From assembly GCA_014871385.1 (NCBI GenBank), contig CM026421.1:10661644-10725643 (forward strand): DNA of 64,000 nt, in the 5' to 3' direction. This document shows, in pieces, positions 19,976 through 58,513 of the stretch. Position numbers and translations under genes: made by a program. The notes under the pieces are model-generated. The model was not told the origin of the DNA. It searched no databases and worked only from the letters and a program-made list of their open reading frames with translations. Source of the stretch: Ceratodon purpureus (Eukaryota > Streptophyta > Bryopsida > Pseudoditrichales > Ditrichaceae). The stretch's first letter is position 1; every line of letters starts with the position of its first letter.

Positions 19976-20201
19976 TGTTAAAGAGCTCAGACCAAAGGCA
20001 AAAATGAAAATGAAAGTGTGTAGTCTTCCTCAAGCTGCTCTTATTTATTGCCTCATGGGTGGTAACTTCAAGGCCTTTTGGATGATAACATAGAGAGATT
20101 AACTGTGACTTACTTAGTGTTCTACTCTACTTCAGTCTAAGACACTTGGAAGTTGCATGTCGGTGCTCCCGAGGTCGCAGCCTTCTAGAACCTTTCTAAC
20201 A
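19976..20201 (-). repeat. LTR of the retrotransposon (3' LTR in coding orientation)
   Basis: About 226 bp running TGTTA...TAACA on the plus strand and nearly identical to 22499-22736. On the minus strand the purine tract CAAGGAGGAG (20212-20202) abuts its TGTTAG start, as expected of a polypurine tract. Confidence 0.85.
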
Positions 20202-22498: not shown

Positions 22499-22736
22499 GT
22501 ATTACCGAGCTCAGACCAAAAGCAAAAATGAAAATGAAAGTGTGTAGTCTTCCTCAAGCTGCTCTTATTTATTACCTCATGGGTGGTAACTTCAAGGCCC
22601 TTTGGGTGATAACATAGAGAGATTAACTGTGACTTACTTAGTGTTCTACTCTACTTCAGTCTAAGACACTTGGGAGTTGCATGTCGGTGCTCCCGAGGTC
22701 GCACCCTTCTAGAACCTTTCTAGAACCTTTCTAACA
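22499..22736 (-). repeat. LTR of the retrotransposon (5' LTR in coding orientation)
   Basis: Nearly identical to 19976-20201 but with a short internal duplication of TCTAGAACCTT near its end and a slightly altered start (TATTACC instead of TGTTAAA). It is followed by the GCCCC target-site duplication. Confidence 0.82.
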
Positions 22737-22741
22737 GCCCC

Positions 22742-23789
22742 AACTCAAGACATGCTTTTTAACTTAGACTTTCCAGTCAAAGAGACAGTTACAACTTACA
22801 ACTGAATGATCAAAATACAAGCGATTGACATTCATGACTGCGAAGCGTACAAGAAGTGGGCCAATCCAGTCCTCGAGGCTACCAACATGGCAACGGGTAG
22901 TACACTGTGTACCGAAACAGTGTAAGAGAGTCTGCATTCTGCAGAAAGAGCAGCATTTTCCACGCTATCTATGCAAGAAATACATGTTTCACGAGGGTAC
23001 TGTAGGACCATAATTTCATCACACAGAATAAGATTTTAAATCTACCTCTTCCTGAAATTCATGAAAACAGATCCAAAGGAAGATATCACGTGCAGGAATG
23101 TTTGAAGTCATGATGCCGCCCTGACCTGTGACTGTATTGGAGAAGTATGTATTTATCATGTTTATTGGCCCTTTAGTTTGGAAATGAGCTTGATCGTGGA
23201 TTCGTAGTCCTTCGAGGTTAAAGATCAGCTTCATAAAACATGTTCTAGCTAACAGTATGTAATATCTATAACAGCGTGTACCACGTCGCTCCATGAATCC
23301 GGATATTTATACAGTATTTTTTGACATGAGACTAAGTTCTGGAGGATTAGTTTTTGACTAAGTTCCACCGAGATGACCAGTACGTGACACTCGCCGACCT
23401 CACTAGTTGAAATCTGGAGTTCGGGGGCTGCATACCGAGGTTTAGGCATGTAGATGATTTGATAGTTGTCTCGGGAGAACAAGCTAGGTTGAATCCTGGC
23501 TCCAGCTATTGCTTCGGAGATGGCCCAGGGTTCAGAAAGTCTTGGTACAGAAGTTTAAACACATGGGTAAGTAGTGATTATGTCATGCTACCTGTGCATG
23601 TGGATATTAAATGGTACTGTTTAGTGTAACTGTAGTAAATGGGCGGAGGAGCAATGGTGCAGCGCTGCTCGTTATAAAAGCTTGGTATTGTGAGAGGAGT
23701 CAGAATCCGATGGCACCATCCGGTTCGTACGCATGATCTTGTTTAGGCAGGTGATACTTCTGGTTTGAGTGTTCTAGAGGGTGCCGACA
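22742..23789. other. Upstream region of left carrier gene
   Basis: No gene supported. From about 22.9 kb this DNA is a diverged reverse complement of the 57.0-57.9 kb region: blocks such as TTCTGCAGAAAG and TTTCACGAGGGT match in order. This is where the outer end of the left duplication arm is seen. Part should be the carrier promoter and 5' UTR. Confidence 0.5.
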
Positions 23790-26700
23790 ATGGGCGAGTA
23801 TGGAGTGCCGACGGAGGCGCCACATGGAGTGATGAGTTCCAATGGTGGGACTGCTACTGCCAACGGAAGCGAGAGTGGAGAGAAGAGCAAAGTGGGCCTG
23901 TCCTCGCTGTGGAAGGGCCATACTGTATTCGATGCCTGGCTCATTGCTGCTGCTGGTCAGGTACTAGTTTGGGAGATATTTGGGCGCTTGTTCATTGACT
24001 ACAGCAGACGCTGCAAAATGATTTCTCCGAAAGAAACATCGCTTGTCGAGCGAGAATTAGAACCAGCTTACATACAGTATACCTGTTCTCATTACTACAT
24101 GCTAACCCTAGCAGAAGCCATACCGTATTCCATGTCCAGTAACCCAAGTGTCTTACAGTATCTTACATTTTTTAATGAACCAGCTGGCCGTCACTGATGG
24201 CAGCGATCAAGAGGACTTTCTTGTCTAGTGTAGCAGGTGCGTGTCTGGGCCGGGATAAAAGAGAATTGTTTGGCTTCTCGTATTGAACTCTCCGAACAGT
24301 CATGCCACATAATAAGACCTTCGTGGTGGACTAGAATGAGTACAGCTGCGGACAGGGATGAGCCATATCTGATTCCAGTTGTAGATATAAAAAATCCGAA
24401 ATTCTTCGTGCACTTGATATTCCAGTGCTAGAAAGCTTTTAATTGAATCAAGTAAATTCTGGGAGAACATGGACTCTACGAAAGATTTTATTTGCTGGTC
24501 AGGTTTATGTCAATTTAAATCAATGAGTAAGAGGAAACCGCGAACGTAAGAGCCATCGAACGTTATGTGAACTTCCCCATCTCAGATGAAAGCTTTAGGG
24601 GGTGTGCGTGAATATTACTTATGAGGCGCAATGTTTAAAATTTTTACATTTTTCATAGTAAAGAAAGGAAATGGTGAGTCTACAGCTGATATACACATTC
24701 GTTTACATGATTTTCAGATCGGTTTTGTGCTGGTCACCCTGCCATATACAATGTCACAAATGGGCTTTGCTTGGGGAAGTGCTGCCTCTGTCCTGTATGG
24801 ACTAATAGGAGCATGGTGTGTTTACCTTCTGGTATGGCTCTACTTGGAATTCAAGTCTCGCATAGACTTACAAGGCAAAGTTCGCCCAGAGAACTATATT
24901 CTTCAGGTTTGTGCAATTATGTCCCAACTCTCCACACAAAGTTCATCATAATCTCGTGTTAGGTTGCACTGACTGAGAACATGATGGATTACTGTTTTTA
25001 TTAAGTTTGCTCCTCAGATTTGTCTTACTTGCGCTTGTGTTGTCAACAAATGGCCAGCAAGTGACGGCAAAGAATCTGTGGCTGTGTGCAGTACCATGAA
25101 GTGATTGGGGAACTAACTGGCAGATGGGGCCGCAAAATCACCTATTTCTACATTATTTTTACACTTTTTATGGCATCAATCATCTGTGTCGTGGCGTCTT
25201 CAAGGTGGGACTCTTGCATATTTCTCTCTGTCCATTGCAGAAACGAACATAAATCAGTCCTAGTGTGACATTGCAACTAGTTCAACGTGATTTGGAGTAA
25301 TTTGTTTCTGGTGCACAGGTCTAATTACCTGGAGAGAGATTACTAATCGTCTGTTAATGTTGTATTGCTTACAATTTTTCCAGCAACCTTTATTATGCAA
25401 ATCCACGTCTGAACAAGAGGGAGTGGACGTACATTGCGGGAGGGGTATCGTTTCTAGCTGTCTTAGTTCCAGACTTTGGTCACTTCCGCTCAGGTGCCTT
25501 CATTGGCGTCATTACCACCACCATCACATCTATCTACTTGCTCGTCGCTGCGCTCTCTTATGGACAGGTCTTTTTTCTATCAACACTGCCATAGTTATAA
25601 GTTTATACTGTTCTGTGTTTGCAGCCTTAGTGATGCATCGTGAAAACTTGGACGGATGTACATGATTACCATCTTATGTAATGGAAGACATAGGAGCCCA
25701 TCTCCATTACAATCTGTTTTAGAATGCAAATAACTGAGAATTCTCTTATTAGCCAAACAGCATGATTTCTTTTACAACGAATCTTGATGCCTTGAACCCT
25801 GTTTTGATTGTACCGTTTTGTTTCTTTTGTGATGACGTAGAGACCAGGAGTGAAGCATACTGGTGCAAACGACATGGTCGAATTCTTCTCGGGTGTAGGC
25901 AATATCTTGGGCGCATACGGAGGCCACGGAATTACCATGTAAGCTGTTATTTTTAAATACTACAAAAGAGTTGATTAATCCTGTGGAACAGACTTCAGAG
26001 ATTTGTGCTCAAAGTGCACTTTTATAATCCAATCCTCAATACAATGATTCCAATAATGAAGTGCAAACTCCAGAGAAATTCAGAATTGATACGAGTGAAG
26101 AATAGAAGTTGAGCTCATGTGGGACGTTTCTGTGGTGGCAGAGAGATTCTGGAGACCATGAAGAGGCCATCAGCATACAAGTATGTCAACCTCGCAGTCT
26201 TTTTCTATGCGCTTCTAGTCACCATCCCCAGTTCCGTGGCAGTTTACTGGTCAGCTGGTGATATTCTTTTGAAACAATCAAATGCCTTCGCCGTTCTTCC
26301 CGGTAGTGGATGGCAAACACTGGCCATTGCTACCATAATTGCACACCAAGTAAGCACGACTTGCCATGACTTGCCCTGTTCAAATATAGTAGAGTTATTC
26401 TACATAGTCAGAGATTCCATGGTGCAAATTCAGAGTGATTTCTGTATTGTTGGACCATCGGAGCTTCCTGTCGATGGCATAGTGCACTAAATTACAACTT
26501 CAGGACCATGAAGCTCATTTGCCTGGGATCCACCCAGCCAAACTCATGAGTACTTTTAGGATAACTCTTGTTTCTCTGACACCTTGAAACAGGTTCAGAT
26601 AAGTTAATACTGTAATTGTTGATCTTATGCAGGCCATGGGATTCATCTTATTTACGCACCCAATTTTCTTGCTCTGTGAGAAGGCAGCGGGGGTGCATAC

Positions 26701-27334
26701 GAGAAGGTTCTTCCTACGAGTTCTGTGTCGTATACCAGTGGTGGCAATCATGTTCTTCTTTGCACTTGCTGTACCCTTTTTTGGTCCAATTAACTCTCTC
26801 CTGGGATCATTTGGAGTGGGCTTAGGAATGTACTTAATACCCGCTGTTGTATTTCTCGTCACCTACCGCACCAAGTCAGCTCGTGAGGTAACATTGAGCT
26901 CATTCACAAACTTGATAATTCTGTTCTGTAAAACATGTGTCAATTTGTTGCCATCTACTACAAACTGACCACTTTCAGTGCAGCCATTGAATTCCTGCAT
27001 TTTCAGCACAAGCATGTTGAAATCCAATAGGCTCACGTGTACACCTTGAAGTGCCTCGACTCTTGGCGTGGTGCAGGATACCGGTAACTGACATCTTGCT
27101 GAAAATTGAAGAAAATGTTGGACTGTATTCTATGTGCAGAACTCACCTGTGAAGCCGCCGTGGTTCCTCCCCACATGGTCCCTTGTATTTGTGGTGAATG
27201 TTGTGGTAATCCTTTGGACTCTTGTCGTTGGTGTGGGTCTTGGAGGATGGGCGGGCATCAGCAACCTTATTCGGCAGGTTCACTCCTTTGGATTCTTCGA
27301 CAAGTGCTTCCAGTGTCCACCCAAACCAAAATGA
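23790..27334 (+). CDS. AUX1/LAX-family auxin influx carrier, copy 1, 470 aa, eight exons
   Basis: Exons are 23790-23960, 24718-24906, 25092-25204, 25384-25567, 25841-25938, 26142-26349, 26633-26887 and 27140-27334; all junctions are GT-AG and total 1413 nt with one stop. The start MGEYGVPTEAPHG is used because the homologous copy conserves this ATG. The protein shows the AUX1 layout: a hydrophilic N-terminus, SLWKGHTVFDAWL, a first membrane region with LVTLPYTMSQMG, NKREWTYIAGG, the GAYGGHGIT core, FFGPINSLLGS, and the family-specific end GGWAGISNLIRQ then FGFFDKCFQCPP. AUX1/LAX proteins are H+-coupled permeases with about 10-11 membrane spans that import indole-3-acetic acid at the plasma membrane. 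The transmembrane part differs enough from the angiosperm AUX1 I recall that it may be a separate early-plant clade, so substrate is inferred. Intron 1 is about 450 bp longer than in copy 2. Confidence 0.92.
24189..24390 (+). pseudogene. Degenerate fragment of the snoRNA-like cluster inside carrier intron 1
   Basis: 24193 on reads CACTGATGGCAGCGATC followed by ACTTTCTTGT-TAGTGTAG, matching the D-box end and downstream flank of module C. It then continues GGTGCGTGTCTGGGC, as in the right-arm flank near 48.9 kb. A second block at 24312-24384 keeps AGACCTTCG, GCGGACAGG and CATATCTGAT of a module but has lost the first hairpin and the C box. The insert is absent from the much shorter intron 1 of copy 2. 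Confidence 0.6.
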
Positions 27335-29130
27335 CACAGGCTATCAAACTTAGAAGGAGCAACTGCCGAACAAATGATCCACAATCCTCTACTTCTTGAC
27401 CAATTCTTACTGGAGATTCAGGTTGGTAGGTACATCATTGCTGTGTAAAGTATGCTGGAAAACTACACTCGATCTGTTCAAAATCTTCACATCTTGTTTT
27501 GAGAGAAGATTCTAAATTAGGATTAGATGCACCAGTGGTGTAATATATCTTTGTAAAAAACGTAATCATGTAATACCTCGATGATCTAACATACTGGTGA
27601 TACAAAAATAGAAATGACTCCAGATCAGAGTTTTTGGTGTTATGGTGTTGTTTTTCTGGAAGAATGTGGGCTTTCTGGACTTATTGATCTTCAACAATCA
27701 TTATGAAGCGTCTATTTTGGATAGTTTATGACTCCACTTCTCGTTGTGCAATTTTATTTTTTTAATATAAGAGTATGAAAGAATGTCACATGGCATTCCT
27801 AAGATAATAATTTCTCATATAATATGAAAAAACAAAACAAAGTGATGTGGATTTAACGAATGAAATCCATAGTGGACATGGTTCTAATTCAAAATGGATT
27901 GGGGTTACTTTTGTCCACCTTTTTGAAGCAACTGTAATCTCAAGGTTGCCACTTCTATTTGAAAAACACTTGCAACTCAAACTTGCCATCAAAATAAATG
28001 ATAAGACCAATATTTACACATACACACAAATATGAAGAGGTTATCATTTGCACCTTCAAGAAAGGTTTGCAATTTAAGTACAATTGGAGTATTGAATGAA
28101 AAATCTTAACATTCTTTTCTATTGATTTTGTTTGAATTTACGCACAATTGCGTCATTTTTTTTTAAAAGCATCCTCTTATACGATACAATATAATTTATT
28201 TTTTCTTATTGTACTTGGTATGATGTAATTATCAAAAAGTTCAAAAATGCAATTTTTTCTTTAGAAATACAATCATGATAGATAGGCTTTATAGAGTTTT
28301 GATGCATCTCAAAGTATCTATATATATCACTAGTAGAAATATGGTCATTAATGACTCGTCCATAATGACTTAAATGGTCCAAAATGTCTCATTTTGAGTC
28401 ATTTAACCATAAAAGTCATTGAGGACAAGTCATTAAGGATCATATTTCTACTAATGTATGTTATTAGTGTTTCCTCAAAAAGTTGTGACTCATCTCATAA
28501 ATAGTCTAGGGTGATTATTTCTTAGAAGTCTCTTTACTGGAAAGTAGCTGCTCTTTTTACTACTCTCAAAAGGGGGGAGCAGATCTTTACTTCCATACCT
28601 TTGTCCCGCGGACATTGGATTGGGGGTGGATCGAACAGACACTTAATTCACATCGGTCTCCTTTGGAGACCATAGTTTCTCTCCCTTAGAAGTCTTGATG
28701 CGTTACATCCCCAAAGTAACGCCTAGAAATAATGATGCGTTACATCCCCAAATACTTTGAGAACATCCTCAGGCAGCAATGACCCTCTTCAGAACGCAGA
28801 AGCTACCGCTGACGCCGGCCGCCCACGCGACTGCGTCAGCGGCGATAGTGGCTGCGGCATACCGCGGTCGCGGCAACAGCAGTCGTCGTCTGTATAGGAA
28901 ACTGATACGTATGATGTACTTGTATACAATGAGCAAATGACGACGACGGATTTCATTCGGAGACTGTCCATCCTGAATCTGTCAGTCCATTAGGTCAGGT
29001 GGAAGTCGGGGAAACCCTAAAGCAGGGGGGGACGAGGCAGAAGCTCTTTCGCAGCCATAGCCAGGCCACGCCCCGCTGGGCATCTCTCTCTTCCTCCGTC
29101 GCTGCGCCTCCCGCACCCCTGCCCGCAGCC
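27335..29130. other. Spacer between carrier copy 1 and RPL26 copy 1
   Basis: 27.34-27.6 kb is the carrier 3' flank, conserved in the right arm. 27.7-28.75 kb is AT-rich and arm-specific, holding a CACTA-like MITE (listed). At 28698 and 28735 TGATGCGTTACATCCCCAAA is directly repeated, and GGTCTCC-TTT-GGAGACC forms a perfect small palindrome near 28655. 28.79-29.13 kb is GC-rich, conserved in the other arm, and is the likely RPL26 promoter. Confidence 0.5.
28328..28456. mobile_element. CACTA-like MITE, 129 bp
   Basis: The element starts CACTAGTAGAAATATG and ends CATATTTCTACTAATG, forming terminal inverted repeats that extend inward through ATTAATGACT and AAGTCATTAA, so nearly the whole element can fold on itself. 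TAT flanks both ends, a 3-bp target-site duplication typical of CACTA transposons. No coding capacity. Confidence 0.75.
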
Positions 29131-30464
29131 ATGAAGTTCTCTCCTCGTAAGTCTGCTCCCTGCCCCCGTCTTCCTGCATCTCTCGGCGCTGCGACCAGTT
29201 CGGGGACGTCATTTTAGGTGCTCCTTCTTAGAGCTTCTGATTCCCAATGAGTGCGGGGGATGAGCTCTTGTTCTGCACAGTTCTTGGAGTTCCCGAGTTT
29301 GGAGTAGGATGCGGGTAATAGCTCTTGTAGGCGGGCTTCGAGATTTTCGATCTGGGGGTTTAGGGTTTAGTTGCTGGATAAGGCGATGTAGGGTTTAGGA
29401 GAAGACGTCGATGGCGTGAATGGATTGGCGTGTCGTGATGAGAATGCCGGTCGCAGTTGAAGGTACTGACGCGGTGGGAGTTGTGATGGCGATGCAGGTG
29501 TGAGCAGCTCCAGGCGCAAGTCGAGGAAGGCGCATTTCAGTGCCCCCTCCAGCGAGAGGCGCATTCTTATGAGTGCGGCCCTCTCCTCAGACCTCAAGAA
29601 CAAGTACAATGTAAGTTCGGAATTCTTGGCCTTGCCGGTTTGGTGACCTAATTTGGGGAGGGCAATCGTTGGGATCGGTGGCGATGAGTGAATTGGACTT
29701 GGCGAGAATTGCTTGCACTTATCTGTTAAGTGAGATCCAGCGGACATCAGCTGCATTGTGTGGCGAGCCTTCGTTGTGAAACAGTGGGGTCGGTACAGTG
29801 TGTGAGCAACACTTTGTCGGTTGTGGCTGTGTCTATTCTCCGCACGTAAAATGTTGGAATTGACATGTGCGGTGGACGGGTTGCAGGTTCGGTCTGTACC
29901 AGTGAGGAAGGATGACGAAGTGATGGTGGTGCGCGGCACGTACAAGGGCCGGGAAGGAAAGGTGGTGCAGGTGTACAGGCGGAAGTGGGTGATCCATGTG
30001 GAGCGCATCACTCGTGAGAAAGTGAATGGTGAGGTTCTTGTAGCATTGGACCTACAGTGGGAAGTTGACGTGGTGTCCCAAGCTGTTGTGAGCTACAGTG
30101 CTGTGCTTCAAGAGTTTTCTGAGACAGAAAACAAGTACATGCGGAATGTGAACTTTTGTTTGTCTTGGGGTATTCGTTTTGCTATGAGTTGACGCTTCGC
30201 GTGAGAATTTGACGGATAGAGTTTTATAAGATACAAGAGATATATGCCTGTGTGGGATGAGATGACGGAGATGTGTTGGTGATTTGTGCAGGAGCTACCG
30301 TGAACGTGGGCATCGACACGTCGAAGGTGGTGATCACGAAGCTGAAGTTAGACAAGGACCGCAAGGCCCTTCTAGAGCGCAAGGGCAAGGGTCGGTCTGC
30401 AGAGAAAGGAAAGGGAAAGTTTACAGATGCGGATGTGGCTCCACCCCTGCAGGAGGTGGACTAA
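29131..30464 (+). CDS. RPL26: 60S ribosomal protein L26 (uL24), copy 1, 147 aa, four exons
   Basis: Exons are 29131-29146, 29498-29610, 29887-30028 and 30292-30464, joining to 444 nt. The protein begins [20 protein letters not shown], has the KOW domain in exon 3 ([20 protein letters not shown]), and ends in a basic [14 protein letters not shown] segment then PLQEVD. L26 is a universal large-subunit protein near the exit tunnel. The first exon is only 16 nt, as is common for plant ribosomal-protein genes. Intron 1 contains a telo-box-like GGGTTTAGGGTTTAG at 29354-29370, a motif often near plant translation genes. Three structured RNA modules follow within 1.1 kb downstream. Confidence 0.96.
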
Positions 30465-30752
30465 GGATTCTGTATATGTATCAATGGAATCGTTTCATAT
30501 TATCGGCCATGGCAGTGGAGATCTGTGTGATGCACGAGTCTATCGTTTCTTGCTTCATTGACAACACTAGTTGTCCTATTTCCTTTGTTGGATGCATGTG
30601 ATCAAATCTCGTCCTGTCTATGTGGATTCCGCCTTATTGGCAGGAACCCGGTCTAATGCCCCACTTTGTTTGTTTTGCTATGCAAGTGGAACCTTTGGTT
30701 CATATTTAGTTTTTGAAGTCTGTAGGTCTAGGTTGAAGCGTGGGTATCTAGA

Positions 30753-30843
30753 TTGCGGCCAGGTGATGTGGCCTACCAGGCCGACCATGATGCGGACAGA
30801 TCGGCTTTGCCATATCTGACAACCTGGTGCTGATGGCAAGCAA
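30753..30843 (+). ncRNA. C/D snoRNA-like structured RNA, module A
   Basis: A C-box-like GTGATGT follows CCA, and a D box CTGA is followed by TGGC, so the ends pair as in C/D snoRNAs, with an extra outer TTGC/GCAA pairing. Between them hairpin 1 is GGCC-TACCA-GGCC, the invariant core is GACCATGATGCGGACAGA, and hairpin 2 pairs CAGAT with ATCTG around GGC-TTT-GCC. The rRNA target is not identified; transcription in or beyond the RPL26 3' UTR is possible. Confidence 0.55.
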
Positions 30844-31287
30844 TTGGGGATTTGTAGCTTACTTTTAAGGTGGTGGTTTTTGTTGATTTTGAGTCGTGAC
30901 AGTTTTTTGTGTCTACATCCTGGTATAGTGTACAGCTGGTTATGCTGTTCGTTTTATTGGATTGGTGCGCGTTATTATTTGTGCACCTTACAAACTGATT
31001 ACAGGCTGGACGTGAGTGCCAGTTTAGTATGAGATGGTGCTACATGGACTGATCCTTCATTGGTACAAACTGCACTTGATGGTGGTGCCGTTTTCAAAAT
31101 GCTGGGTACATTCGATTGCTGTTATCTGTTCTGTGGGTTGCGTCACATGGTACTGGCGGCAAGATTTTATGTTGTTGGATAGTGGAGATTGAACTGTGGC
31201 CGCATTGTTAGTTGGGTTTCTGCTTGTTCATTTGGTCGTAGTGTAACGAGCGGCACCCTTACGTCTGAGTTCGAGCGAGCGTATGTT

Positions 31288-31375
31288 GTGGCCAAGTGAT
31301 GTGACCGCAAGGTCGACCATGATGCGGACAGACCTGGCTCAGCCGTGTCTGATAACTCGGAAACTGATGGCAAGA
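31288..31375 (+). ncRNA. C/D snoRNA-like structured RNA, module B
   Basis: GCCA (31291-31294), GTGATGT C-box-like, hairpin 1 GACC-GCAA-GGTC with a GNRA tetraloop, the invariant core, hairpin 2 CAGAC/GTCTG around GGC-TCA-GCC, then D box CTGA (31364-31367) and TGGC. Compared with module A both hairpins show paired compensatory changes. Sequence upstream of the D box (TGATAACTCGGAAA) differs from A and C, so targets would differ if it is a guide. Confidence 0.58.
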
Positions 31376-31460
31376 CTGTTGTGCAGCGATTGAGTAGCTT
31401 ATTTATTTCGTGCAAATGTTGTTAGATTCTCCTACGGAGGTGGTGGTGGGTACAGGGTTG

Positions 31461-31548
31461 TTGCCAAGTGATTAGACCTTCGAGGTCGACCATGATGCGG
31501 ACAGATGAGGCGAATGCTGTATCTGATAAACTGGTTACTGATGGCTGC
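31461..31548 (+). ncRNA. C/D snoRNA-like structured RNA, module C
   Basis: GCCA (31463-31466), GTGATTA, hairpin 1 GACC-TTCGA-GGTC, invariant core, hairpin 2 CAGAT/ATCTG, then D box CTGA (31538-31541) and TGGC. It lies about 85 bp after module B. The C box deviates more from RTGATGA than in A and B. Confidence 0.55.
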
Positions 31549-32661
31549 GATCCAGACGACTTTCTTGTGTAGTGTCGGAGGTTCGTATCAGGGGTTGTGA
31601 TAGGGGAGATTAGTATGGATTGTTGTATGAGGATGTCGGAGTGATCTTGCCACATTGTTTGACAATTCGTCGATAATGATGGTGCGTCCTCCACCTGATA
31701 TGGTGTTGCAACTTTTAGTGCATGGGATTATCTGTGGGACAGTTCATCCACGGAATGTCTTATGGGGTTTTATAGCAGATAGTAAACCTTTCCATTATTT
31801 GCAGGATATCATTTTATGCGCACTTTTATCTGGAAAAGTTGAGGGTGAATTGGAGTGATTGCAACTTGAGATAGCTGGGTCCTTAAGAGTGGAAATATGG
31901 AGAAGGATTTTCAAATGAGGATTGTGGATTCAGAGATCTCATCTTTGCATGAATTTAATTTCACACATGAGTACCTTGCTATCGATGTCGAAATGATTTT
32001 TGCATCACTCATTTTCTTGAGACGAGGTGTGATTCGCACTGAGGCGTCTGCTATTAGTTTAGCCCAATGATTGGCCGACTGCCAAAAGTAAGTAATGAAC
32101 ATGTCTAAATCTTCAAGCAACACACTGCATCTTGCGTTTTGATAACCAGTTCATGTTGTAGTGTAACCTACTGAATTGCTGTGTCCTATCTGTTGATGTA
32201 CCTGAGCTAGTAATTGCAGGTATGAATTGCAGTTGTAGAACAAATCTGTTGGTAGAACCAGGCTACATCACTTACCGTCTTTTGCGCACCTTCTGCTAAA
32301 GCATCTGATCATCAGCACGGTTTGCAATTAATATCTGCGAAATGGAAACCTTGATGGCAATGCCCCGCTCCGCAGGTGATCAATGTGTTGTAGATGAGCC
32401 TGCTGATTCATTGTAGAGACCTGCATTTCATATGAAAAAGTGCAGCAGATTTTCAAGAGCAGGAAGCGATCGGAAGCTGGTGAAGGAAGGTTCAACCTGG
32501 ATTGCTCATCTAAAATGGTTCTAAGGAAGGGCTGCATCTAGGGAGGCCCCTTGCCATGATGGCTGATCCCGGGAGCTTTTGTTTACATAATTACATCTTA
32601 ATTAGTGTATATTACTTAAAATTTTGTAGATCCCTAATTTGTGGTCCTTAGATAGTATCAA

Positions 32662-41993: not shown

Positions 41994-42190
41994 ATACCTT
42001 TCTCGGCCTTTTGGCTAAGATCAAGTGTAGTACCTGTTCTTATCAGTTTAATATCTGGTACGACGGACATCGTCCCTCATGATATTAATCTAATTTTTCT
42101 CGGGTGCGGGTTCTATACGGCAGCTTGCTGCCTGGACCCGCGAGCGTCGCCTTGGTCTTGCACTACCTCCTCGGCCGACGCAGCCCTATC
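41994..42190 (+). ncRNA. U2: U2 spliceosomal snRNA
   Basis: The 5' end ATACCTTTCTCGGCCTTTTG and the following TTGGCTAAGATCAAG match plant U2. The branch-point-pairing GTAGTA lies at 42027-42032 (U2 nucleotides 34-39), followed by TTATCAGTTTAATATCTG. The Sm site AATTTTT is at about 42092, then two 3' stem-loops (GGGTGCGGGTTC...GGACCCGCG-type and the GCCTTGGTCTTGCACTACC region). The length of ~197 nt is normal. One base differs from the usual text just after the branch-pairing site (GTAGTACCTG rather than GTAGTATCTG). U2 pairs with the intron branch point in the spliceosome. Confidence 0.93.
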
Positions 42191-47848: not shown

Positions 47849-48777
47849 TATTTAAACTAATCAATGGTTATTTGGGCTACATAAAGACAACTCAAATGCT
47901 TTACCTATATCTTAGACATGACTAGCTTGAAATTCAAGGTAAATCAAAATTGGGTAGAAACATTTGGTATTTTTTCAAGAAGAAATGGGATTTTCAAAGA
48001 TGACCTTTACTAAGCCATGAAATTGGTTTCATCTCACAAATAATGTGTTCTTTTAACATTGTTCGCAAAATTGTATTGACAGGAGGTAATTCAAATGGTT
48101 ATATCATTGAAATCCCATAACATTAAACCTGTTCGCAACAATTAGGGTTTTTGTTCTCTACATATATACCAAGCGAGGAGTGATGATCAAAAACCGCAAG
48201 ATCAAGTACTCAAGTAATGAGGTTTTGTTCTCTAATGTCGTATGACTCGTCATTGGGCAGTAGTTCCCAAACATTATATGAAAATTTGACTTTTCGATAG
48301 ACTTGGATGAATAGTTGAATGAGGCACGATTTTGAAGCAATTGGAGAGTGTACATGTTGGAGCTAGGCAGCATACGTCTTCGACTTGTTGGAGATGGTAT
48401 TGGAGATTTTCATTGTCTATCAATAGATAGAAAACATCATAGGAGACATCATAGGCAGACTCAGTCATTTCAGGGGGGCCAGGTAAAAACCTCTATACAG
48501 AGAAAACATGCCTCCACTGAGCTGCTACAAGGACGTGGCTAAAAACCATGCTGCTGCATTGTAAGCTAGTCTTCCTAAAGTGAACCCAGATTATATAATC
48601 CGGAGATGAAACATTTGTCACCAGACAATTCCACCAAAGGATTCAAGGTCCAAATAAAGAAAAAAAATTGCGGACACAACAAGCAAGCCACGGACGCGAG
48701 CGATGTAATCGAAATATCTACTCCAATTGATAATCGAAAACCGAGTCTAGTGTGATCATATTCAATATCAAAGCGGC

Positions 48778-48865
48778 AAGTATGGCTTATGCCTGTCCGC
48801 AGGTACCCGCATCCTCATAGACAGCTTAGGACTGACATGTGCAGTGACCACTTGGACAGCCTAAT
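48778..48865 (-). pseudogene. Degenerate snoRNA-like module D'
   Basis: On the minus strand CCAAGTGGTCACTGC, then ATGAGGATGCGGG, CTGCGGACAGGCATAAGCC and ATACTTGCC follow the order of a module but lack intact hairpin 1 and D box. The carrier intron fragment at 24312-24384 resembles this copy. Confidence 0.35.
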
Positions 48866-48942
48866 ATGACAATCCTTACTAAACTCCCATATCCCTGCCC
48901 AGACACGCACCTGCCACACTACACAAGAAGGTACTCTGGATC

Positions 48943-49030
48943 ACAGCCATCAGTAACCAGTTTATCAGATACAGCATTCGCCTCATCTGTCCGCATCATG
49001 GTCGACCTCGAAGGTCTAATCACTTGGCAA
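48943..49030 (-). ncRNA. C/D snoRNA-like structured RNA, module C'
   Basis: Near-identical to module C in core, hairpins and D-box end (TAAACTGGTTA then CTGATGGC). It retains the GTGATTA variant C box. Flanking DNA is less conserved than the module. Confidence 0.55.
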
Positions 49031-49115
49031 CAACCCTGTAACTTTTACCACCTCCGTAGGAATATCTAACAACAGGCGCACGAAATAAATAAGCTACTCA
49101 ATCGCTACACAACAG

Positions 49116-49204
49116 TCTTGCCATCAGTTTCCGAGTTATCAGACACGGCTCAGCCAGGTCTGTCCGCATCATGGTCGACCTTGCGGTCACATCACTTGGC
49201 CACA
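49116..49204 (-). ncRNA. C/D snoRNA-like structured RNA, module B'
   Basis: Counterpart of module B: GCCA stem, GTGATGT, GACC-GCAA-GGTC hairpin, invariant core, CAGAC/GTCTG hairpin, CTGA and TGGC all conserved. Confidence 0.57.
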
Positions 49205-49653
49205 ACATACGAACGATCGAACTCACGCATAACTCGTCACACCACGACCAAATGAACAAGCCGATATCCCACTCACGATGCAGCCACAGTCCAGTCTCCA
49301 CAAACCAAGAACAACAAATTCTCGCCGCCAGTATCCAGCGACGCAACCCACAAAAGTGGCAACAGCAGTAACGAACTTCAAATGTACCCGCCATTTTGAA
49401 AACGGCACAACCATCAAGTGCAGTTTGTACCAATGAAGGACAAGTCCATGTAGCACCATCTCATACTAAACTGGCACTCACGTCCAGCCTGTAATCAGTT
49501 TGTAAGGTGCACAGATAATAACGCTCACCAATCCAAGAAAACGCACAGTCTCCCAGTTGAACACTATCCCAGGTTGTAGACACAGCAAACTGTCACCACT
49601 CAAGATCAAAAGAAAAAAAAACACGACCTAGTAAGAGAGCCACGAATCCACAA

Positions 49654-49744
49654 TTGCTTGCCATCAGCACCAGGTTGTCAGATATGGCAAAGCCGATCTG
49701 TCCGCATCATGGTCGGCCTGGTAGGCCACATCATTTGGCCGCAA
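49654..49744 (-). ncRNA. C/D snoRNA-like structured RNA, module A'
   Basis: Counterpart of module A. Its C box reads ATGATGT, closer to the RTGATGA consensus than in A. Hairpins, core and D-box end match module A. Confidence 0.57.
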
Positions 49745-50028
49745 ACTAGACACCCACGCTTCAACCTGGACCTCGACTCCAAACAAAATACAAACTGAAG
49801 ATTGCACTTGCATAGCATAACAAACAAGTTGAGGCACCAGGCCGGATTCCTGCCGATCCGGCGGAATCCACGTCGACAGGACGAGAATTGATCACACGCA
49901 TCCGACAAAGGAAATCGGACGACTAATGTTAACCACAAAGCAAGAAACGATAGACTCGTGCATCACACAGATCCCCACTGCCATAGCGAATAATATGAAC
50001 TGATTCCATTGATACATGTACAGAATCC

Positions 50029-51331
50029 TTAGTCCACCTCCTGCAGGGGTGGAGCCACATCCGCATCCGTAAACTTTCCCTTTCCTTTCTCTGCAGACCG
50101 ACCCTTGCCCTTGCGCTCTAGAAGGGCCTTGCGGTCCTTGTCTAACTTCAACTTCGTGATCACCACCTTCGACGTGTCGATGCCCACGTTCACGGTAGCT
50201 CCTGCACGAACCACCTACACATCTCCGTCATCTCATCCCACACAGGCATACATCTCTTGTATCTAATAAAACTCAACCAGTCAAGCTCTGACAAGAAACT
50301 ACAAAACTCACAGAACAACGAAGTCCCACAACCGCCAAAAATTCACGTAGCATTCTGTGTCTCATAGCTCGTAACAGCACAGCACTGTAGTTCAGAACAG
50401 CCTCGGACACTACCTATTGCACGTACAATGCTACAAGAACCTCACCATTCACTTTCTCACGAGTGATGCGCTCCACATGGATCACCCACTTCCGCCTGTA
50501 CACCTGCACCACCTTTCCTTCCCGGCCCTTGTACGTGCCGCGCACCACCATCACTTCGTCATCCTTCCTCACTGGTACAGACCGAACCTGCAACCCGTCC
50601 ACCGCACATGTCAATTCCAACATTTCGCGTGCGAAGAAGAGATACGCCAAACTTGCACAGCCCCAACTGATTAATTGATGCCATTAGACCCCCTGTATTT
50701 CAAGACGAAGGCTCTCAACACAATGCAGCTGAATCCGCTGGACGTCATTTTGCAGCTACTTGCAAGCAAGTCTCGCCAAGTCCGGTTCACTCATCATCAC
50801 CGATCCCAAATTAGGTCACGACACCTGAAAGGCCAAGATTCCCAAGCTTACATTGTACTTGTTCTTGAGGTCTGAGGAGAGGGCCGCGCTCATAAGAATG
50901 CGCCTCTCGCTAGAGGGGGCACTAAAATGTGCCTTCCTCGACTTGCGTCTGGAGCTGCTCACACCTGCATCACCATCACACCTCCCGCCGCGTCAGTACC
51001 TTCAACTGCGACCGGCATTCTCATCACGACACGCCAATCCATTCACGCCATCGACGTCTTCTCCTAAACCCTACACCGCCTTATCCAGCAACTAAACCCT
51101 AAACCCCCAGACCAAAAATCTCGAAGCCCAGCTACAAGAGCTATTCCCCGCATCCTAATCCAAACTCGGGAACTCCAAGAACTGTGCAGAACAAGTGCTC
51201 ATGCCCCACACTCATTGGGAATCAGAAGCTCTAAGGAGGAGCACCTAAAATGACGTCCCCGAACCGTTAGCAGTGCCGAGAGATGCAGGAAGACGGGGGC
51301 AGGGAGCAGACTTACGAGGAGAGAACTTCAT
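50029..51331 (-). CDS. RPL26: 60S ribosomal protein L26 (uL24), copy 2, 147 aa, four exons
   Basis: Exons on the minus strand are 51331-51316, 50964-50852, 50587-50446 and 50201-50029, of exactly the same lengths as copy 1 (16, 113, 142 and 173 nt). The encoded protein reads identical to copy 1 although synonymous sites and introns differ, which points to purifying selection on a functional second gene. The three RNA modules again lie downstream, keeping the gene-module spacing of copy 1. Telo-box-like AAACCCTAAACCC lies in intron 1 near 51.1 kb. Confidence 0.96.
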
Positions 51332-53784
51332 GGCTGCGGGCGGGGGTGCGGAAGGCGCAGCGACGGAGGAAGAGAGACGCCCAGCGGGGCGTGGCCTGGC
51401 TATGGCTGCGAAAGAGCTTCTCCCTCGTCCCCCCCTGCTTTAGGGTTTCCCAAGACTCCCTCCTGACCTAACGGATTGTCGGAGTCTGGATGAATGATAT
51501 CCGGATGGATGTTACGTCGATGCAATTCGTCGTCAATTCTCATTGTATTGAAGTACATCATACGTAGCTGGTTTCTGTACTGTACAGCGGCGGCTAATGT
51601 GGCCGCAACCGCGAACTGCCGCAGCCACGATTGCCGCTGACGCAGTTGGGGGTCGGCCGGCGTCGAGTTCAGGCTTTATCACAGCTTATCACGCCTTATT
51701 ACAACTTATCACGGCATATCTGCGGCTCACCACGGCTTATCACGGCCTTTTAGAGCCAATCACGTCTTCTTAGTTCCGTTGCGTGCAGAGGAGAATCTGT
51801 TTTCTTCAAAGGACACTACTGTGAGTGAAGTGTGTGTTTGTTCCCTTGTTAACCCCTAAACGCCCTCACCTATATCTAGTTTAGGCAGTTTTGCAAAGAT
51901 GCATTATAAAATGCAATTAATATGAATATTTAGAACTTGGTCTATGAATAAAAGTTATACATCTTGAATTTTAGATTCTATCTATATGGTTAGATCGATG
52001 ATTTTTTTATAAATTTTGAAACATAAAAAACAAGTTATTTTGTAATTCAATTACAAATAAGATGTTGACAATAAGTGGATGAAATTTTTTATGATGGGTT
52101 ATAATGTAGCACTTTAGGTTTAGTGATTTTGGAGATTTTTTGGATGCCTGATTTTAGTAGTTTTTTTCTTCAAGAACACTTTTAGACCAAAATCTAAAAG
52201 ATTTTTCAGTGAAACACTTCAACACAAAATGAGGCATAATTATTTCAAATATTATTTTCTTTACAATCAAATTACTCATACATGAAACTAACTTCCCATA
52301 GAAAATTCAGTAAAAAAACCACACCACAAAAAGTACATGATGGATGAGAAAAAACAGATGAAATTTGTACTATACATCAGGCCAAGAAAGCATGCTTGGA
52401 TAGTTAGTGGTTTAACCGGTAGTCCCTGTACTCACTCCCGAGGTTACCTCGACGATTCTATATTCAGAATCAAGCAAATTTGGCTACCTCTCTGATTCGC
52501 AGAGAGCTCTAAGAGAAGAGGGGGAACTCATAGCAGGTTCCAAATGGTAGAGAGTGTGTCTCCGCTTATATACCCGGACTCTAAGTTTAGGCACAAGTCC
52601 ATGGAGCATATAGTGATATAGCGATGTTTACTTTGGTTTTATATAGGAGTTTATATAGAAAAGATATAGGAGTTTATGAATCTAGTTCAATTGAATTGCA
52701 AAGAAGGCATGTAATGGTAAGATATCTTTGTAATCCAAATAAAAATTATATTCTAGCATTGCGTTTTGGAACTTCTAATATGCATGTGATTTGAGATTCT
52801 ATTATATGATGATAGTTAGATAGATTCTTGTCAATATTAACTACTTATTTTTTCATATCTATGAAATTGGATTTTTAAATGACCAAGCATTAGATTCAAC
52901 AAGTACAAGTACTTTGTTAAATCAATACATATGTCTCAGCTTTTAGATGTTGACAACTCCTATAACTTCCAAATTTTGGATGGACATCATAGCCTAGGCA
53001 TCTCAATGCTTTGCAATATGGTGAGCATTTATTTCTCTACTATTCCAAATTGTTACACTTCCACTTTCTATGTAATTTATGAACAATTCTCTTTATCCAA
53101 TCTTTAGATTGAATCCTTTCAAGTGAATGGCAAATATCGTTACAAAATCAAGCAAGTTCAGTCATTTGATATAGATGCAAAGGGTGTAGATATTCTCAGG
53201 ATTAAGTATAATTCCCCCAATTCTCTTGATTAATGAAGCTTGGGAGGTTCAACTTGATGGTACAGATGGAGTCACCCTGCATAGTATTCTTTTCCAATAT
53301 CCTCTGGTTTCTGATAATATGATGAAGGGAAAATGGTGAAGGAAATACTCTACAAATTCTATAACGGAAAGCCTGTCTTGTGGTGTTTCTGACATTCCCA
53401 TCTTATTCCTGTGCATTGATGTTTTTGAGCAGTGCCTGTGGTGTCGAATAAAAAAAACCATGAGACAAATTTGAAGCATCGACACTTTCTGTTACTCTGA
53501 TGTGGAGTCGTTTCATTTTGGTATCATCAGTTTATTGAATATCTGAAAAGATTGTTACAAAGATGTGTTACACCACTGGTGCATCTATTCTTACTTTGAA
53601 ATCTTCTTTCAAAAACAAGATTTAAAGACTATGAAAAGACCGAGCTTGAATTAGTGTATTCTTCTATGAAACTGTACACAGCAATAATGTCCCTACCCAC
53701 CTGATCGAGTAAGAATTGGTCAAGAAATGGTGGTTTGTCGAGTTTTGGTTGGGAAGTTGTTCCTTCTGAGTTTGATAGCCTATG
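51332..53784. other. Spacer between RPL26 copy 2 and carrier copy 2
   Basis: 51.33-51.67 kb is the conserved GC-rich RPL26 promoter side. From TTAACCCCTAAACGCC at 51849 to about 53.2 kb the DNA is AT-rich and absent from the other arm. 52.4-52.6 kb has a less AT-rich stretch with a TATATA box that could be a solo-LTR remnant, not proven. 53.55-53.78 kb is conserved carrier 3' flank. Confidence 0.45.
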
Positions 53785-56700
53785 TCATTTTGGTTTGGGT
53801 GGACATTGAAAGCACTTGTCGAAGAATCCAAAGGTGTGAATCTGCCGAATAAGGTTGCTGATGCCCGCCCATCCTCCAAGACCCACACCAACGACAAGAG
53901 TCCAAAGGATTACCACAACATTCGCCACAAACACAAGGGACCATGTGGGTAAGAACCACGGCGGCTTCACAGGTGAGTTCTGCACACAGAATACAGTCCA
54001 ACATTTTCTTCAATTTTCAGCAAGATATCATTTAGCGGTACTCTGCACCACGCCAAGAGTCAAGGCACTTCAAGGTGTACACGTGAGCCTATTGGATTCA
54101 ATCATGGTTATGCTGAAAATGCAGGAATTGAATGGCTGAACTGAAAGTGGTCAGTTTATAGTAGATGGCAACAAATTGACACATGATTTACAGAACAGAA
54201 TTCTCAAATTTAATGTGAATTAGCTCAAATATTACCTCACGAGCAGACTTGGTGCGGTAGGTGACGAGAAACGCAATTGCGGGTATTAAGTACATTCCAA
54301 TGGCCACTCCAAATGATCCCAGAAGAGAGTTAATTGGACCAAAAAAGGGTACAGCAAGTGCAAAGAAGAACATGATTGCCACCACTGGTATACGACACAG
54401 AACTCGTAGGAAGAACCTTCTCGTATGCACCCCCGCTGCCTTCTCACAAACCAAGAAAATTGGGTGCGTAAATAAGATGAATCCCATGGCCTGCATAAGA
54501 TCAACACTGACAGTATCAACTTATCTGAAACTGTTCCAAAGTCTCACAGAGACATGGGGCTGGATAAACTATCCTTTTTTGTGCATCAAACTCGTCACTC
54601 TAGTTATGCTAAAAGTACCCATGGGTTTGGCTGGGTGGATCCCAGGCAAATGAGCTCCATGGTCACAAGGTGGTTAAATTACAGTGTATACAGTGCACTA
54701 TACCATTGACAGGGAGCTCCGACGGTCCAACAATACAAAAAATCACTCTGAATTTGCACCATGGCACCTCTAAGTATTTAGAATAACTCTACTATTGAAC
54801 AGGGCAAGTCATGGCAAGTCATGCTTACTTGGTGTGCAATTATGGTAGCAATGGCCAGTGTTTGCCATCCACCTCTAGGAAGAACAGAGAAGGCATTTGA
54901 TTGTTTCAAAAGAATATCACCAGCTGACCAGTAAACTGCCACGGAACTGGGGATGGTGACTAGAAGCGCATAGAAAAAGACTGCGAGGTTGACATACTTG
55001 TATGCTGATGGCCTCTTCATGGTCTCCAGAATCTCTCTGCCACCACAGAAAGGTCCCACATGAGCTCAACTTCTATTCTTCACTCGTATCAATTCTGAAT
55101 TTCTCTGGAGTTTGCACTTCATTATTGGAATCATTGTTTTTAGGACTGGATTATAAAAGAGCACTATGTGCACAAATCTCTTAAGTTCGTTCCACAGGAC
55201 GATTTAACTCTACTGTAGTCTTTGAAAATAATAGCTTACATGGTAATTCCGTGGCCTCCGTATGTGCTCAAGATATTGGCAACTCCCGTAAAGAATTCGA
55301 CCTTGTCGTTTGCACCAGTATGCTTCACTCCTGGTCTCTACGTCATCACAAAAGAAACAAAACGGTACAATCAAAACAGGGTTCAAGGCATCAAGATTCG
55401 TTGTAAAAGAAATCATGCTGTTTGGCTAATAAGAGAATTCTCAGTTTTTTGCATTCTAAAACAGATTGTCATGAAGATGGGCTCCTATATCTTCCATTAC
55501 AAAAGATGGTAATCATGCACATCCGTCCAAGTTTTCACGATGCATTACTAAGGCTGCAAACACCGAACGTTATTGGTTTTTAAGTATGGCAGTGTTGATA
55601 GAAAAAAGACCTGTCCAAAAGAGAGCGCAGCAACGAGCAAGTAGATAGATGTGATGGTGGTGGTAATGACGCCAATGAAGGCACCTGAGCGGAAGTGACC
55701 AAAGTCTGGAACTAAGACAGCTAGAAACGATACCCCTCCCACAATGTAGGTCCACTCCCTCTTGTTTAAACGTGGATTTGCATAATAAAGGTTGCTGGAA
55801 AAATTGCAAGCAATACAACAATGATAGAGTATTAGTATCAATCTCTCTCTCCAGGTTAGACTTGTGACATCAGAATCAATTTACTCCGGATCACACTAGT
55901 TGCAATGATCACACTAGGATTGTTTGGGATTTTTAAACCAATGGACAGAGATAATTTGGCAAGAGTCCCACCTTGAAGTCGCAACGAGATGGATGATTGC
56001 CACCATAAAAAGCGTCAAAATAATGAAGAAATAGGTGATTTTGCGGCCCCATCTGCCAGTTAGTCCTCCAATCACTTCATGGTACTGCACACATCCACAG
56101 ATTCTCTTACTGTGTTGTCATCTGTTGACAACACAAGCGCAAGTAAGACAAATCTGAGGAGCCAACTTAATAAAAACAACAATCTATCAAGTTCTTAGTC
56201 AGTGCAACCTAACACGAGCATGCGATGAACTTTGTATGGAGAGTTGGGACATAATTGCACAAACCTGGATGATATAGTTCTCTGGGCGAACTTTGCCTTG
56301 TAAAGCTATGCGAGACTTGAATTCTAAGTAGAGCCATACCAGAAGGTAAACACCCCATGCTCCTATTAGTCCATACAGGACAGAGGCAGCGATTCCCCAA
56401 GCATAGCCCATTTGTGACATTGTGTATGGCATGGTGACCAGCACAAAACCGATCTGAAAATCATGTGAACGAATGTATACATCAATTGCAGACTCATCAT
56501 TTCCTTGCTTTGGCTCCGGGGTTCCTCTCTATGGTAAATACTGTCTTTTCTATGGAAAATTCAAGGTACTGAAAGAAAGACACTTGACTTTTTGGATATC
56601 AAAGATGGAGTGGCTTTAGCTAGGGTTAGCAAACAGATATACTGTATGTAAGCTGGTTCCAATTCTCGCTCGACAAGCGATGTTTCTTCCGAAGAAATCA

Positions 56701-56926
56701 TCTTGCAGCAACTGCTGTAGTCAATGAACAAGCGCCCAAATATCTTTCAAACTAGTACCTGACCAGCAGCAGCTATAAGCCAGGCATCGAATACAGAATT
56801 GCCCTTCCACAGCGAGGACAGGCCCACTTTGGTCGTCTCTCCACTCTCGCTTCCGTTGGCAGTAGCAGTCCCACCATTGGAACTCACTCCATGTGGCGCC
56901 TCCGTCGGCACTCCAGACTCGCCCAT
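53785..56926 (-). CDS. AUX1/LAX-family auxin influx carrier, copy 2, 469 aa, eight exons
   Basis: Exons are 56926-56759, 56453-56265, 56084-55972, 55794-55611, 55337-55240, 55036-54829, 54490-54236 and 53979-53785, totalling 1410 nt. All exon lengths equal copy 1 except exon 1, shorter by one codon (V-SSNGG against VMSSNGG). Differences cluster in the N-terminus, exon 2 (G-Y-AWG-I for G-F-AWG-S, L-T-M-P for L-T-L-P) and exon 5 (NILSTYGGHG for NILGAYGGHG). The conserved FFGPINSLLGS and GGWAGISNLIRQ regions remain. It is intact and presumably functional as a plasma-membrane auxin importer or a related permease. Confidence 0.92.
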
Positions 56927-58513
56927 TGTCGTCACCTCTTAGAATACTCAAATCAGTAGTATCACCTGCCTAAACAAGATCATGCGTACGAACCGAATGG
57001 TGCCATTGGATTCTGACTCCTCTCATAATCCCAAGCTTTTATAACAAGCTGCACCATTTGCTTCTCCCCAGATCCGTTGTGGGCAAACCTACAGTACTAA
57101 ACAGTACAATCTTATCTGGTAGACCACTTCAATCTTCACATGAACAGGTAGCATTACATGATCACTTGCGCTGGGGCAAGTAAACCCATGCTCAAACTTT
57201 CTACCGAGACTTTCTGAACACTGCAGGGTCATCTCCGAAACAATAGCTGGAGCCAGGATTCACCCTGCCTTGTTCTTCGGACACAACTATCAAAACATCT
57301 ACAGGCCCACAACTCTGGTGCAAACACTGAAATATCTTCACCTGGTTGCATCAAGACCCCAAGGCAATACAAAAGTATGCACTCCTACCCCAGATTTCAA
57401 CTAGCGAGGTCGGCGAGTGTCACGCACTGGTCATCTCAGTGGAACGTGGTCAAAGGCTAATCCAACAGTACTTAGGCTCGTGTCAAAAATCACTGTACAA
57501 ATGTCTGGATTTAGGAAGCGTGGTGTCTCTATAAGACAATGTTACAGCTATTATTCACAGTTAGCTAGAACATGTTTTGTAAATTAACTCTTGAACTTCG
57601 AAGAAATGCAATCATGCTCCTTTCCAAACTCCACTAATGGAAAGGACTAATGTACATTATAAGTACATACTTATCCAGTACGTCTGCATGACTTCACACA
57701 TGCCTGGTGAAATCATGCCTTCAGGAACCATCTGATTTTCAGGAAGAATCAGTTTTAAAAATCTTATTCTGTGTGGTAAAGCTATGGCTCCTAGAGCACC
57801 CTCGTGAAACATATTTCCTTGCACAGCTAGCATGGAAAATCCTGCACTTTCTGCAGAACGTAGACTCTCGCACATTGTCTTATAGAGACATATTCGTCAC
57901 CGATGACCACTTTTCTCCGGACGACTACGTATGCAAAGTTCTATTCCAAAAATGAGGATAAAGTCATCAATCGTCCCATGACATCAAAGTTCACTAGGCC
58001 TAACTTAGTGCCATTGGAAACAAACCTATGAGACTTCCAGACTTACCTCATCGCATCAGTCAATCGTAGACATTCTTACAGCAAACACTGTCTCATGTAC
58101 TGGAAAGTAAGCAAGCTGTTGTTCATAGCAAGGATAGCAAGTTCTGTGCAAAATAGCAAGGAATTGAACAACATAGAAACTGAATACCATGATTGTACTA
58201 TGATTTTTAAACCCATTTCTAACAAGTTAAGCAGGCAAAGCTTCCTGCGTACACCTGCAGTAACTAATCTGCTTGCAACTGCAATGAACACAGATCAAAA
58301 ATCACCTGGAGAGACAAAAATTAGATCAAGCAACATACCAGTGTTGCATTATTTTTTAAAACTAGATCACTTCGTTATACGTTGCATTCCTTCGGGATCC
58401 TTGCTTTTCCCCGTGCAAGATTGCATGAGCCGGATCTGAGTAAAACCTGAGCAGCCCACTTGTCTGCAGATGATCGATGCAACTGTACTCACAATTCAAG
58501 CTAGGCGACACAT
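56927..58513. other. Upstream region of carrier copy 2
   Basis: Carrier promoter and 5' UTR lie near 56.9-57.1 kb. The minus frame at 57875-57657 falls where the arms are homologous but the left-arm counterpart is broken by stops, so it is not called a gene. Nothing else supported. Confidence 0.4.

Follow-up and report, generated by a model that had tools for sequence, protein, structure and literature searches.

Two systems in Arabidopsis bear most directly on the locus described here. According to the literature on rRNA methylation and snoRNAs (PMC5122169, PMC3511168, PMC11542601, PMC9853271, PMC3144222, PMC4660826, PMC8053127), C1850 of the 25S rRNA is a mapped 2'-O-methyl site assigned to SnoR149, a box C/D snoRNA of the HID1 snoRNA cluster (named in PMC8053127), and is less methylated in the hid1 cluster mutant; the same nucleotide has been mapped in tomato and tobacco. 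SnoR128 and SnoR129, which are arranged in tandem within a single gene, guide Cm1847 by pairing with the same 25S stretch, and their duplex is also bulged (at A1851). These sources list 111 2'-O-methylated nucleotides (Nm) for Arabidopsis, with at least nine consecutive pairs at 100 of 104 assigned sites; the exceptions include 8-bp and bulged duplexes.

In a 64-kb stretch of Ceratodon DNA, hereafter the window, three modules named A, B, and C follow the gene for RPL26. We consider it likely that they are tandem paralogous box C/D snoRNAs, part of a mixed cluster, that guide methylation of C1850. Like SnoR149, they lie within a plant snoRNA cluster and are predicted to target C1850. In contrast to SnoR149, three tandem paralogues and an H/ACA-like RNA are found here after RPL26, the guide duplex is interrupted by a bulge, and a covarying hairpin occupies the spacer between the C box and the guide. 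Their tandem arrangement recalls SnoR128 and SnoR129, which differ in methylating a nucleotide three positions upstream and in carrying the bulge on the rRNA side. Our reading suggests what an RNA family that lacks an Rfam match may do. It would also add this plant to Arabidopsis, tomato, and tobacco, for which 25S Cm1850 is listed, by supplying a guide for that site. It also illustrates how, among paralogous snoRNAs, the constraints on boxes and guide can mimic a new class of structured RNA.

Results and discussion

Six modules share a box C/D anatomy

When the window was searched for the 18-nt core GACCATGATGCGGACAGA with up to three mismatches allowed, six matches were recovered, all exact and three on each strand, compared with a mean of 0.03 in shuffled controls (six were reached in 0 of 100 shuffles). 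Three of these lie in modules A, B, and C, and three in A2, B2, and C2, within an inverted paralogous copy of the region at 48946-49740 (Table 1). The modules are approximately 82 nt long, and every one of the six has a GCCA/TGGC closing stem, hairpin 1, the core, hairpin 2, and CTGA, as the sequence-only reading had described for a shared family downstream of RPL26. The terminal stem accompanied by boxes C and D, as in box C/D snoRNAs, is likewise present in all six. The C box reads GTGATGT in A, B, and B2, ATGATGT in A2, and GTGATTA in C and C2, departing in its final bases from the consensus, RUGAUGA. The order GCCA, three bases, GATG (GATT in C) on one side and CTGA followed by TGGC on the other matches what is required of a C/D k-turn.

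Table 1. Features of the RPL26 locus and its inverted copy, in window coordinates
Feature	Position	Strand	Remarks
RPL26 gene, ATG to stop	29131-30464	+	coding stretches tested: 29503-29610, 29887-30027, 30294-30461
Module A, probable box C/D snoRNA	30757-30838	+	putative box assignment
Module A, C box	30763-30769	+	
Module A, hairpin 1	30770-30782	+	
Module A, guide	30783-30796	+	
Module A, D' (CAGA)	30797-30800	+	
Module A, C' region	30815-30822	+	
Module A, D box	30830-30833	+	
H/ACA-like block between A and B	30980-31110	+	two hairpins and terminal ACA
Module B, probable box C/D snoRNA	31290-31371	+	guide 31315-31328; D' 31329-31332
Module C, probable box C/D snoRNA	31463-31545	+	guide 31488-31501; D' 31502-31505; deviant C box (GTGATTA)
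Module C2, paralogous copy of C	48946-49028	-	identical
Module B2, paralogous copy of B	49120-49201	-	1 difference
Module A2, paralogous copy of A	49659-49740	-	2 differences
Decayed module (pseudogene)	24303-24382	+	covariance model 11.2 bits, E 1; not significant alone

The longest invariant run in the alignment spans 19 columns (26-44) and comprises the guide, the D' box, and one base of hairpin 1. The D guides are not alike among A, B, and C. We infer that the invariant core is a D' antisense element followed by the D' box CAGA. CAGA and TGATAA or TGACAA fit D' and C' as degenerate boxes (the C' of module A, TGACAA, is imperfect), and an alternative reading of these letters is an extension of hairpin 2. 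The compensating Y-R pair of hairpin 2 and its GGC/GCC extension would then serve as the stem linking D' and C', with the unchanging letters representing the boxes.

Rfam, searched at both gathering and permissive thresholds, returned no family that reached its gathering score, either with the modules or with the H/ACA-like block. By sequence, then, the modules matched no named family; their likeness to a known snoRNA, SnoR149, is by predicted target only. The best Rfam match of module A was sno_ZL116 (RF02727), similar in its terminal stem and boxes, and membership was rejected because the match scored 14.3 bits where the gathering score is 82 (E 0.93). A tRNA search found none. Neither the core 18-mer nor eukaryotic 18S/25S motifs were found in viral contigs, and six exact matches to the 18-mer in bacterial MAGs were taken as chance.

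The core is complementary to Arabidopsis 25S rRNA at C1850

The guide GACC-A-UGAUGCGG pairs with 5'-CCGCAUCA-GGUC-3' of Arabidopsis 25S rRNA: CCGCAUCA contributes 8 bp, one guide base is bulged, and GGUC contributes 4 bp more. With CAGA as D', the antisense element lies directly upstream of the box, and the D'+5 nucleotide on the Arabidopsis rRNA is C1850 (Arabidopsis numbering), a published Nm. A published plant 25S primer, ATAACCGCATCAGGTCTCCA, confirms the letters of the target stretch, and the numbering follows from it: its letters agree with methylated C1847, C1850, G1855, and C1860 as well as with the position cited as A1851. Under the guide reading, the 25S complement expected in this plant would be CCGCAUCAGGUC or a variant lacking the bulge.

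For scanning we used the Arabidopsis 18S, 5.8S, and 25S rRNAs, which were checked against published sites and may differ from those of Ceratodon. By duplex energy, ignoring register and methylation status, the C1850 stretch was the best partner of the core among 5299 segments of these rRNAs (-21.4 kcal/mol). The five best segments all overlap this stretch, and the next separate region, near 25S position 564, reached -20.3 kcal/mol. In a register-bound scan of six guide readings, C1850 was again the top site of the core, with 8 pairs plus 4 after a 1-nt bulge. Shuffled cores (n=1000) found some site at a score of at least 8 in 607 cases and a published Nm at that score in 28, a figure that is weak after correction for the six registers. 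None of the 1000 found a published Nm with at least 4 further pairs after a 1-nt bulge, a criterion chosen after the pairing had been seen. Overall, the shuffle evidence for C1850 targeting is good but not conclusive. Additional pairings of 7-9 nt around C1850 are present in modules A, B, and C, and were given no weight.

The guide reading has several weak points. The duplex has 8 uninterrupted pairs, can be lengthened only across a bulge, and falls short of the usual minimum of 9, though it lies within the published exceptions; in addition, the D' box is degenerate, C' is imperfect, and the C box of module C is deviant. Box C/D snoRNAs are stable RNAs of ~70-100 nt to which fibrillarin and 15.5K bind. 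If the modules are expressed and assembled into RNPs in Ceratodon, the GCCA/TGGC stem with boxes C and D would provide the 15.5K/NOP/fibrillarin core with its k-turn. The internal motif could consist of D' (CAGA) and C' (TGAYAA), connected through the inner stem of hairpin 2. The invariant sequence 5' of D' would pair with CCGCAUCA-GGUC of 25S and bring fibrillarin to the nucleotide that faces guide position 5, predicted to be C1850, which would then be methylated.

Covariation is small, and one hairpin has no role in the proposed guide reading

In the structure named by the sequence-only reading, pairing is complete (80 of 80 cells), and none of six slid controls exceeds 32.9%. One pair of hairpin 1 is changed on both sides (A-U/G-C), as is one pair of hairpin 2 (U-A/C-G), which also has one G-C/G-U change. 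With a sample of only three independent paralogues, the covariation score was reached by 9 of 500 shuffles, while the count of pairs changed on both sides was matched in 238 of 500 and that of further pair types in all 500. Covariation in the modules is real and small. The folds are mixed. Single-module energies are not clearly lower than those of shuffled sequences (z of -1.43, -0.59, and -2.31 for A, B, and C), and module A favors an alternative fold (-30.5 versus -17.8 kcal/mol). RNAalifold did not choose the GCCA/TGGC stem, pairing the C-box side with the core instead. The earlier argument that paired changes imply selection on RNA structure is partly supported.

It had also been claimed that two hairpins and an unchanging core are not normal for a methylation guide, and that the modules may represent an undescribed snoRNA-related class. 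The first claim is not supported: the core reads as a D' antisense element plus CAGA aimed at an Nm known in other plants. The second is neither supported nor needed; the canonical box C/D reading explains most of the features held to be abnormal. What remains of the proposed C/D-box RNA family is its boxes, the selection on it, and some covariation. Hairpin 1, in the spacer between the C box and the guide, is the sole part without a role in the guide reading. It is conceivable, if rather unlikely, that it reflects a lineage-specific C/D guide architecture, in which a hairpin in this spacer is selected, the duplex is bulged, three near-redundant paralogues share a D' target, and the D-side spacers evolve toward separate, perhaps non-rRNA, targets.

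Slightly less likely again, the modules could be orphan structured box C/D RNAs resembling U3, U8, or U13, with a core that binds pre-rRNA or a protein and guides no methylation. The presence of two hairpins, each containing a single compensatory pair, the 8-bp limit on uninterrupted pairing, and the missing Rfam match at threshold would all suit such an RNA. However, a D'-like box directly follows the core, whose best rRNA site is a single 25S stretch in which the D'+5 nucleotide is a mapped Nm.

Other target sites fit less well

If the modules are methylation guides, they might direct modification elsewhere: at C1847, as SnoR128 and SnoR129 do, at 18S 295, or through D-box guides with targets of their own. 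For C1847 there is the precedent of SnoR129, which pairs with this same 25S stretch with A1851 bulged, but a D' box would be needed three bases further 3', where by eye there are no box-like letters. 18S 295 ties with C1850 at 8 pairs, but it lacks the extension and is not a published Nm. The variation of the D guides among A, B, and C would be compatible with separate targets, and some run scores exceed that of the core (in the numbering of the scanned sequences and with G-U pairs included, 9.0 for the D guide of A at 25S 269, 8.5 for that of B at 18S 1103, and 8.5 for D'=CGGA at 25S 570). Yet, like 18S 295, the best D-guide sites are absent from the 111 listed Nm, and we regard a different site as improbable. 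The other registers tried (D'=CGGA, D'=CCGA of A, and the D guides of A, B, and C) were rejected, as their best sites are not published Nm; by duplex energy, the four of them that were scanned were weaker than the core.

The modules are conserved where their surroundings have diverged

The segment 28811-31655 and its inverted counterpart at 48837-51664 share 86% identity. Between these copies the modules differ at only 3 of 247 positions (2/82, 1/82, and 0/83), whereas in spacers and flanks, once 29 gap columns are excluded, 143 of 799 aligned positions are different (Fisher p 9e-15), and conservation falls off at the module edges. The covariance model of the modules, run over the 64-kb window, found one match beyond the six (24303-24382) and no other intact module. 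Preceding this decayed module, 24190-24257 is a copy of the tail and flank of module C. Further decayed copies probably lie near 31646-31720 and 48770-48860, as judged by eye and alignment. These decayed relatives show how copies diverge without constraint. Together, these data support the view that the modules are an RNA family under selection. That they are instead a functionless spread repeat or SINE, recently homogenised by gene conversion, is very improbable: the region is duplicated and contains a decayed copy, but conservation drops at the module edges, the decayed copies show the fate of unconstrained sequence, and the 64-kb window holds no other intact module.

The duplication is itself part of a larger inverted segmental duplication (22917-31655 versus 48837-57878), in separate blocks of 75-90% identity. 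The aligned counterpart of 24190-24382 is absent from the inverted copy.

RPL26 and an H/ACA-like block accompany the modules

Domain PF16906 is found in two coding stretches of RPL26, and KOW in the third. A telo-box, AAACCCTA, lies approximately 110-120 bases upstream of the ATG in both RPL26 copies (29012, and 51441 on the minus strand), and no exact telo-box occurs between RPL26 and module A. This distribution would suit co-transcription of the modules with RPL26.

Box H/ACA RNAs are laid out as a hairpin, an H box (ANANNA), a second hairpin, and an ACA three nucleotides from the 3' end. The block between modules A and B resembles an H/ACA snoRNA. By eye, it contains no exact H box, and it matches SNORA35 weakly, at 14.9 bits against a threshold of 39. 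The block differs from its copy near 49377-49507 (-) at 5 of 131 positions (p 8e-6), and, of the two copies, copy 1 alone has a pocketed 3' hairpin as its best fold.

Two further features of the window were recorded. Between the inverted arms lies a U2 spliceosomal RNA gene (41994-42188, +; 164 bits in Rfam). Direct repeats of 216 bp at 19983-20198 and 22507-22722, 97% identical and approximately 2.5 kb apart, could be the LTRs of a small element.
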